Part shown: positions 34,493-36,040 of the stretch, one piece after another
Layout of the letters: every line of letters begins with the position of its first letter
Numbering within the stretch: the stretch's first letter is position 1
Source of the DNA: Thermoplasmata archaeon
Lineage (GTDB): Archaea > Thermoplasmatota > Thermoplasmata > Lutacidiplasmatales > UBA184
Direction of reading: 5' to 3'
Length of the DNA: 36,490 bases
Assembly: GCA_030038605.1 (NCBI GenBank)
Contig: JASHSU010000052.1
Span: 1 to 36,490 of the forward strand
Notes under the pieces: model-generated
What the model was told of the DNA's origin: nothing
Seen by the model: only the letters and a program-made list of their open reading frames with translations
Databases searched by the model: none
Program-made: the position numbers and the translations under genes

Positions 34493-36040
34493 ATGGCCAC
34501 GAACGCGGAGGGGACCCGGCATCTCCCGGGCTCGGTCGAGGAGATCGAGTCGACGGCCGACATTCCCATCCCGACCGACCCGCTCCAGCGGGTGATCGGG
34601 CAGGAGAAAGCGGTCGAGACGGCCCGGATCGCCGCCTACCAGCATCGGCACCTGCTGCTCGTCGGACCGCCGGGGATCGGCAAGTCGATGACCGCCCAGG
34701 CGCTCGCACTGCACCTGGACCGGCCCCGCACGGAGATCCGGGTCGTCCACAATCCCGAGAACCCGGAGCGACCCAGCGTCGAGATGGCGACGCGCGAGGA
34801 GGTCTATCACGAGCGCGAGGCCGCCCGGTCCGTCGAGGGCGAACTCATCTCGCCGCAGGAGGCGCCCGTCTCGGTCGCGGAGCGGCTGGGCTACCGGTGT
34901 CCCCGGTGCAGCTTCGTCTCCACGCCGGCGGAGCGGTATTGTCCCAGTTGCGGCAACCTCAAGCAGTCCCTGCCCGGCGCCGCCGGCACCGGCAACCCGT
35001 TCCGCGATCTGGTCGGCGGGATCCTGGAGCTCACGGTCAGCCCGGGCGGCAACCCGCAGGAGTCGGTCCGCACGACCCGCCTGCGCAACGGCGTCGAGGA
35101 GGTCGTCTCCTACGAACGGGCCGGCGAACAGATCAAGGTCCTCGACCAGCGCGCGCTCGAACGCCGGCGTACGCTGCAGCGCGAAAGTCCGCGCAAGGTC
35201 ATCGTCAAGCTCGACCGGACGACGTTCGTCATGGCGACCGGCGCGAGCGAAACCGAGCTCTTGGGCGACGTCCGGCACGACCCGTACGGCGGCCACCCTC
35301 AGCTGGGCACGCTCCCGTACGAGCGCGTCATCCCCGGGGCGGTGCACGAGGCCCACGAGGGCGTGCTGTTCATCGACGAGCTGCCCTCGCTCGGCCCGAT
35401 CCAGCGGCACATCCTCACCGCGATGCAGGAGAAGCGGTTCCCGATCACGGGCCGCAACCCCCAGAGCGGCGGCGCCTCCGTGCGCGTCGACTCGGTCCCG
35501 TGCGACTTCATTCTCGTGGCCGCGGCCAACATCCAGGACATCCACCGGATCCTCTCGCCGCTCCGTTCGCGGATCGCCGGCGGGGGCTACGAGGTCCTGC
35601 TGGACACTGCGATGCCGGACTCGCCGGCGAATCGTCTCCGGCTCGCGCAGTTCACCGCCCAGGAGATCGCGGTGGACGGACGGATCCGGCCCGCGACCCG
35701 CGAAGCGGTGCTCGAGATCATCAAGGAAGCCCGCCGGCGCGCCGAAGTGCTGGACGGCCGGCGGAACGCGCTGACCCTGCGCCTGCGCGAGCTGGGCGGG
35801 CTCATCCGCACCGCGGGCGACCTGGCCGCCGTCTCCGGCAGCGACCATCTGGAGGCGAAGCACGTCGCGGAAGCGCTGCGTCGCGCCCGGTCGATCGAGG
35901 AACAGGTCCGCGAGACGTACGGCTCGTTCCAGGGCGGACTGCGCCAGGACGTGACCGAGTCGCAGCGCCAGTCGATGGGCTACTACAACTGGAACGACCA
36001 CCCGGACGCGGGCGGCCAGTTCCCCGGCGGCTACGGATAG
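34493..36040 (+). CDS. LonB-like AAA+ ATPase with zinc-ribbon insert, no protease domain
   Basis: Walker A LLVGPPGIGKS, Walker B GVLFIDELPSL, LonB-like sensor/lid region; YRCPRCSFVSTPAERYCPSCGN insert. Stop occurs without a Lon Ser-Lys peptidase domain. Confidence 0.88.
   Translation: MATNAEGTRHLPGSVEEIESTADIPIPTDPLQRVIGQEKAVETARIAAYQHRHLLLVGPPGIGKSMTAQALALHLDRPRTEIRVVHNPENPERPSVEMATREEVYHEREAARSVEGELISPQEAPVSVAERLGYRCPRCSFVSTPAERYCPSCGNLKQSLPGAAGTGNPFRDLVGGILELTVSPGGNPQESVRTTRLRNGVEEVVSYERAGEQIKVLDQRALERRRTLQRESPRKVIVKLDRTTFVMATGASETELLGDVRHDPYGGHPQLGTLPYERVIPGAVHEAHEGVLFIDELPSLGPIQRHILTAMQEKRFPITGRNPQSGGASVRVDSVPCDFILVAAANIQDIHRILSPLRSRIAGGGYEVLLDTAMPDSPANRLRLAQFTAQEIAVDGRIRPATREAVLEIIKEARRRAEVLDGRRNALTLRLRELGGLIRTAGDLAAVSGSDHLEAKHVAEALRRARSIEEQVRETYGSFQGGLRQDVTESQRQSMGYYNWNDHPDAGGQFPGGYG

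Follow-up and report, generated by a model that had tools for sequence, protein, structure and literature searches.

A LonB-derived AAA+ ATPase with a cysteine ribbon in place of the membrane anchor, encoded beside dnaG, and its possible docking to the archaeal 20S proteasome

Our analysis of the window (the whole stretch of 36,490 nucleotides) identifies the product of the open reading frame at 34493..36040 (plus strand), a protein of 515 amino acids which we call the window ATPase, as a LonB-derived AAA+ ATPase that carries a Cys4 ribbon at the anchor position and has lost both the peptidase and the membrane anchor. Moreover, it is not a one-off: it belongs to a large conserved family, referred to below as the ribbon ATPases, which the earlier note on this DNA had missed. 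The LonB ancestry of the family, the losses, the ribbon, a conserved C-terminal tail and a linkage to particular genes were all computed directly. On balance we lean towards the view that ribbon ATPases are soluble, LonB-derived ring unfoldases in which the peptidase has been exchanged for docking onto the 20S proteasome, a docking that we infer from the tail, and that they probably serve RNA or ribosome surveillance.

A LonB-type ATPase without peptidase or membrane anchor

The gene starts at an ATG, and its assignment as a LonB-type AAA+ ATPase without a peptidase domain draws on profiles, fold and orthologues. All features given here lie on the plus strand. The Walker A motif GPPGIGKS (amino acids 58-65; 34664..34687) and the Walker B motif VLFIDEL (amino acids 291-297; 35363..35383), with an insert containing CPRC...CPSC between them, are present as the earlier note had claimed. 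We compared the ribbon ATPases in two alignments, one of 31 sequences and one of 14 sequences from four phyla. The key Walker A and B residues (G61, G63, K64 and S65 in the alignment of 31; D295 and E296), the sensor-1 Asn, the lid Arg and the putative arginine finger are invariant across the aligned proteins. N346 and the segment LRSRI (amino acids 357-361), which together span 35528..35575 and in which N346, R358 and R360 are invariant, are assigned their putative sensor-1 and arginine-finger roles by analogy with the AAA+ family. The insert between Walker A and the pore loop (approximately amino acids 100-241; 34790..35215) stands where LonB has its membrane anchor, and contains C136, C139, C150 and C153 (34898..34951), with weak Pfam zinc-ribbon matches. 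All four cysteines are invariant in both alignments, and the ribbon they form presumably binds zinc. Downstream of it, LLGDVRHDPYGGH (35258..35296) is a putative pore-loop segment whose conserved aromatic, Y265, is nearly invariant in the alignment of 31 sequences. The block is shared with LonB, aligning with LLGDVRHDPF of the Lon of Thermococcus onnurineus and corresponding to LLGDVKHDPF in the same genome's own LonB. The lid (amino acids 400-465; 35690..35887) scores over cut-off against the LonB-type model PF20436 (LonB_AAA-LID). It is followed by a C-terminal tail (amino acids 477-515; 35921..36037) with a conserved YYxWN patch, the last 20 residues of which are predicted to be disordered and which ends in an HbYX-like Gly-Tyr-Gly-COOH (36029..36037), recognised by the conservation of Tyr or Phe at the penultimate position.

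The best curated models and the nearest fold both point to LonB, which bears out the earlier description of the protein as LonB-like. The match to TIGR00764 (LonB) has an E value of 2.8e-105 and scores 353.2 bits, below the curated cut-off of 516.6 bits because the peptidase half of the model is unmatched. The nearest solved structures by sequence are 3k1j and 4zpx of T. onnurineus Lon (E 7e-83), and the structural comparison with LonB that had been proposed gave the same answer, Foldseek placing 3k1j/4zpx nearest with an E value of 4.2e-35. The AF2 model has a fair core (mean pLDDT 77) and falls below 50 for amino acids 496-515; with its tail disordered, it is uninformative on docking.

We found one Lon_C domain in the source genome, a MAG that is 77% complete, and it sits on another contig in a separate open frame of 726 amino acids, the genome's own LonB. 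The window ATPase has only 40 residues after position 475, too few for a peptidase, and nothing resembling a peptidase was found downstream to 36490, so that the claim of a missing protease domain stands and a peptidase displaced by a frameshift, which had been raised as an objection, is not there. Blocks on either side of the insert align to residues 60-139 and 233-460 of the own LonB, with about 48% identity across the module's second half. The two hydrophobic segments of the own LonB (approximately residues 161-211) fall in the alignment gap that the ribbon fills in the window ATPase, in which a hydropathy scan of the whole protein found no 19-residue stretch with a mean above 1.2. The replacement of the anchor by a ribbon is thereby upheld, and the predicted hydropathy supports the suggestion that the protein is soluble. 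Thus archaeal LonB (TIGR00764; 3k1j/4zpx) and the window ATPase have in common the AAA+ core, the lid, the pore-loop motif and the insertion point, whereas the Ser-Lys peptidase and membrane helices of the former are both absent from the latter, which has a Cys4 ribbon in the helices' place. Unlike LonB, the window ATPase ends in a tail of the docking type.

Distribution, phylogeny and gene neighbourhood

Orthologues of the window ATPase occur in nearly every genome of its order and in most families of its class, at 55-92% identity (about 55-65% outside the source order), and since they are so widespread a chance origin of the layout is excluded. The exceptions within the class are three families (f8, f24 and f28) in which LonB was found and the ribbon ATPase was not. 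Other families of Thermoplasmatota also have the ribbon ATPase, several have LonB only, and most Thermoplasmata genomes encode both. A scan of named groups found it in Methanomassiliicoccales, Methanomethylophilaceae, Thermoplasma sp., Micrarchaeota, Thorarchaeota and one Altiarchaeales genome. Of 119 Asgard genomes, all of them MAGs so that absences are soft, 34 carry a ribbon ATPase and 30 carry the LonB type only, with both present in just one of the 34; the two types are therefore nearly mutually exclusive in Asgard archaea, unlike in Thermoplasmata. A tree of 51 sequences unites all 42 ribbon-bearing proteins in a single group (support 100/100), to which neither LonB nor two peptidase-less Lon-like proteins from bacteria belong. 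A literature search, with most subscription journals outside its scope, returned no description of the family. In a proteome study of Cuniculiplasma (PMC7285479), CSP5_1716 bears the name 'protease Lon homolog' and is distinguished from the LonB CSP5_1287, which makes it a candidate member.

Lon-like AAA+ proteins with neither peptidase nor ribbon were also seen in bacteria. One, in Leptospiraceae KatS3mg129 (L151:5998-7233), has 411 amino acids and adjoins a gene for a CbiX-type chelatase; another, in Brevibacillus gelatini (L163:5425-7239), is a frame of 604 amino acids with an N-terminal extension.

In the window, the gene upstream on the same strand is dnaG (33040..34410; NF003108, E 1.3e-155), encoding the archaeal DnaG of the exosome, and 82 bp separate its stop from the ATG of the ATPase gene. 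The positional link to dnaG had been proposed for this locus, and a survey of the neighbourhood shows that the adjacency is conserved in two phyla: in 37 of 39 Thermoplasmata loci the first gene detected upstream, on the same strand, is dnaG; in 18 of 20 further loci it again lies upstream and on that strand (with a larger gap in some), as it does in most Thorarchaeota loci. On the other side of the ribbon ATPase gene, Thorarchaeota have pelota (TIGR00111, E 1e-85 to 1e-90) as the adjacent downstream gene, usually 29-38 bp away. Pelota has a role in ribosome rescue. Immediately upstream of the ribbon ATPase gene in another group of Asgard archaea is one for a tRNA-splicing endonuclease. At the loci examined in Micrarchaeota, in the Altiarchaeales genome and in one Asgard group, no adjacency to dnaG was seen. 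The archaeal DnaG protein binds RNA as a subunit of the exosome (PMC4227792), and the linkage of dnaG, and in Thorarchaeota of pelota, to the ATPase gene suggests RNA surveillance or stalled translation as the source of the substrates, with the caveat that a conserved order of genes does not require DnaG or Pelota to be physically coupled to the ATPase. About 30 nt ahead of the ATG (within 34450-34492) lies cgacatacctttaccc, a stretch rich in T and A that could be the ATPase gene's own promoter, which makes co-transcription with dnaG uncertain.

The C-terminal tail and the proteasomes of the same genomes

The earlier note had remarked on an aromatic and glycine-rich tail. The tail is indeed there, and it proves to be the most informative part of the protein; what was missed is a penultimate aromatic residue, anchored to the C-terminus and conserved across phyla. 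When ribbon ATPases are aligned from the C-terminus, Tyr or Phe is penultimate in 38 of 39 orthologues, and likewise in 54 of 55 distinct Thermoplasmata tails, where the entropy at this position is 0.81 bits as against 1.7-3.6 elsewhere. The last 25 residues are otherwise variable except, in Thermoplasmata, for the YYxWN patch. In a first Asgard sample 20 of 21 distinct loci follow the rule (ends LYG, RYG, YFF, YFL and YYL), with tails ending SRDYFF, GSYFL, KDYYL, QSLYG or ARYG that otherwise bear little likeness to those of Thermoplasmata. The exceptions are locus L056, which ends RYIG, and the Asgard locus L211, which ends LWNG. At 20 loci fetched after the rule had been stated, a sample that included other families of Thermoplasmatota, all 20 conform (GYE, GYR, GYD, YFF, RYG). 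By comparison, a penultimate aromatic occurs in 5% of dnaG products and in 9.8% of pooled neighbouring reading frames.

Among known C-terminal signals in archaea, a penultimate aromatic end is of the 20S-docking HbYX type (PMC4192671), and the ribbon ATPase tail, as judged from its sequence, resembles the docking motif of PAN and Cdc48. The same or related genomes encode PANs with the C-termini MFA, MYA, MFG and LYQ, and Cdc48s that mostly have LYQ, LYL, AYR, IYR, MYR or YYR, with PGYI and PGYV in two Thorarchaeal proteins; these ends make M-F-X, and possibly G-Y-X, plausible docking ends there. Most Asgard tails have L or Y at the Hb position, where the window ATPase has Gly. Against the docking reading, among the 55 Thermoplasmata tails the residue before the penultimate aromatic is clearly hydrophobic or Pro in only 15, and is Gly in 31 and Ser in 8, hence Gly or Ser in 39. 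Whether the Hb pocket is filled matters for opening the gate of the archaeal 20S (PMC12352868), while for the hexameric PAN and Cdc48 valency has been reported to make the motif less strict (PMC8907193). The Thorarchaeal Y-F-F end also fits the Y-F/Y motif defined for human 20S (PMC8907193).

The Micrarchaeota orthologues also count against docking. At seven loci (L131, L132, L134, L136, L138, L140 and L141) the ribbon is kept and the tails end ..ETA, ..VA or ..EIS. We considered a missing 20S as the cause of this loss and rejected it, the 20S genes being present. With ATPase, ribbon and 20S all kept and no aromatic tail, the core function in Micrarchaeota does not need the tail.

Genes for the 20S are found in 151 of 151 genomes of the class and in all 17 tested genomes reached through other loci, which speaks for docking. 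PAN scores over cut-off in 120 of the 151, and has a match in 32 of the 34 Asgard carriers of the ribbon ATPase. We can therefore reject, as a general rule, the idea that the ribbon ATPase simply replaces PAN; the source genome itself has PAN as a separate gene (G000:C142). That most carriers already possess PAN and Cdc48 is a further point against docking. Family f16 differs, having the ribbon ATPase and no PAN over cut-off, which counts in favour of docking. Outside f16, the ribbon ATPase would be an additional, specialised motor beside PAN.

How would such a motor compare with known ones? The archaeal proteasome motors covered by one review (PMC4192671), PAN, Cdc48 and AMA, are classical AAA proteins, and Cdc48/VAT and AMA are non-PAN ATPases with HbYX ends that bind archaeal 20S (PMC4192671). 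TIGR01242 (PAN/Rpt, classical AAA) does not appear in the list of the 25 best models for the window ATPase. PAN (TIGR01242) and PAN-2 (PMC11475706) are like the ribbon ATPase in the penultimate aromatic of their Hb-aromatic-X C-terminus and in their occurrence with 20S, and share the hexameric form that is expected for it. PAN, however, belongs to the classical AAA clade and has an OB domain, whereas the ribbon ATPase belongs to the Lon clade and has the putative zinc ribbon. Cdc48/VAT and AMA likewise differ from it in AAA clade, domain layout and gene neighbourhood, and Cdc48 has two AAA modules. Within the wider AAA+ proteases, ClpX and HslU form unfoldase rings separate from the peptidase rings of ClpP and HslV. 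This separation is the idea they have in common with the proposed arrangement, though their peptidases and docking elements are different.

Proposed mechanism and competing explanations

The lid of LonB connects the bottom of its ATPase ring to the peptidase ring. Since the ribbon ATPase has kept the ATPase motifs and the LonB-type pore loop, unfolding and threading of protein substrates by its AAA+ module would be expected. The zinc ribbon at the anchor's place would probably select a substrate or partner. The flexible tail after the lid could insert its penultimate Tyr or Phe into the pockets between 20S alpha subunits, and the substrate would then be handed to an external peptidase, the ATPase unfolding and threading and the 20S cutting. 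With a flexible docking tail standing in for the fused peptidase, the geometry of LonB would be retained. More tentatively, ribbon ATPases, a clade that spans Thermoplasmatota and Asgard archaea, may form a Lon-clade 20S motor that couples DnaG-exosome and Pelota surveillance to proteasomal degradation of the proteins associated with it, and archaea would then have their own counterpart of ribosome-associated quality control; in this extended form the proposal is possible rather than probable.

The competing explanation that we take most seriously, while considering it rather unlikely, is that the ribbon ATPase acts with DnaG to remodel RNA-protein complexes or stalled ribosomes, its tail binding DnaG, the exosome cap or the ribosome. 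The gene neighbourhood speaks for it, through the upstream dnaG of most loci in Thermoplasmatota and Thorarchaeota, the order dnaG-ATPase-pelota with its near-constant ATPase-pelota gap, and the tRNA-splicing endonuclease gene in another Asgard group, as does the ability of a zinc ribbon to bind nucleic acid. However, LonB-type motors are protein unfoldases, and the Hb-aromatic-X end is both a known 20S docking signal and the end of PAN and Cdc48 in related genomes. Moreover, Asgard and Thermoplasmatota tails are alike only at their last positions, which fits a small pocket such as that of the 20S alpha subunits. The earlier idea of a remodelling ATPase thus survives as far as a soluble LonB-derived ATPase is concerned, while the conserved tail points to 20S docking and away from an unspecified nucleic-acid remodeller.

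We give little credence to the view that the ribbon ATPase regulates LonB as a subunit without a peptidase, either by co-assembling with it or by competing with it. The two share the same AAA+ module, as the identity to the own LonB indicates, and most Thermoplasmata genomes have both genes, but their near mutual exclusion in Asgard archaea, the depth and separateness of the ribbon clade, and the confinement of the anchor to LonB all argue otherwise. Least probable by far is an ordinary chaperone ATPase of the MoxR, Mg-chelatase or YifB type with a constant layout, an alternative already raised in the earlier note. Generic Pfam matches to Mg_chelatase and bpMoxR do occur; nevertheless the E value for YifB is 1e-11, far behind that of the LonB model, Foldseek ranks BchI and ComM far below LonB, and the window ATPase groups beside LonB in the tree, which contains no MoxR rows. 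Since both the best model and the best fold are LonB, we reject membership of the MoxR/Mg-chelatase family.

If the docking onto 20S that we favour is real, the ribbon ATPase would be a previously unrecognised proteasome motor whose gene stands beside RNA-surveillance genes, and a Lon-derived 20S motor would show that a one-chain protease can be taken apart and coupled to a different peptidase. Family f16, which is PAN-less and probably includes the Thermoplasma-type lineages that supplied the classic model 20S, would gain a candidate regulator. Through the order dnaG-ATPase-pelota, the decay of mRNA, the rescue of ribosomes and the destruction of proteins would be linked in a testable way in archaea, the Asgard relatives of eukaryotes among them.

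Other genes lie around dnaG and the ATPase gene in the window. Downstream, a frame at 36146-36490 (plus strand, open at the window end) encodes the beginning of a protein that looks secreted: its N-terminus is hydrophobic, and it contains repeated Cys-Pro-Pro/Asn-Gly-Thr stretches. It has no NCBIfam match. Upstream, one reading frame away from dnaG, is the gene for PolD DP1, the small subunit of archaeal DNA polymerase II (30448-31959, minus strand; E 4.8e-133). The frame between DP1 and dnaG (32085-32963, minus strand) encodes 292 amino acids with no NCBIfam match, and in relatives a homologue (cluster c11) appears to occupy the same place.
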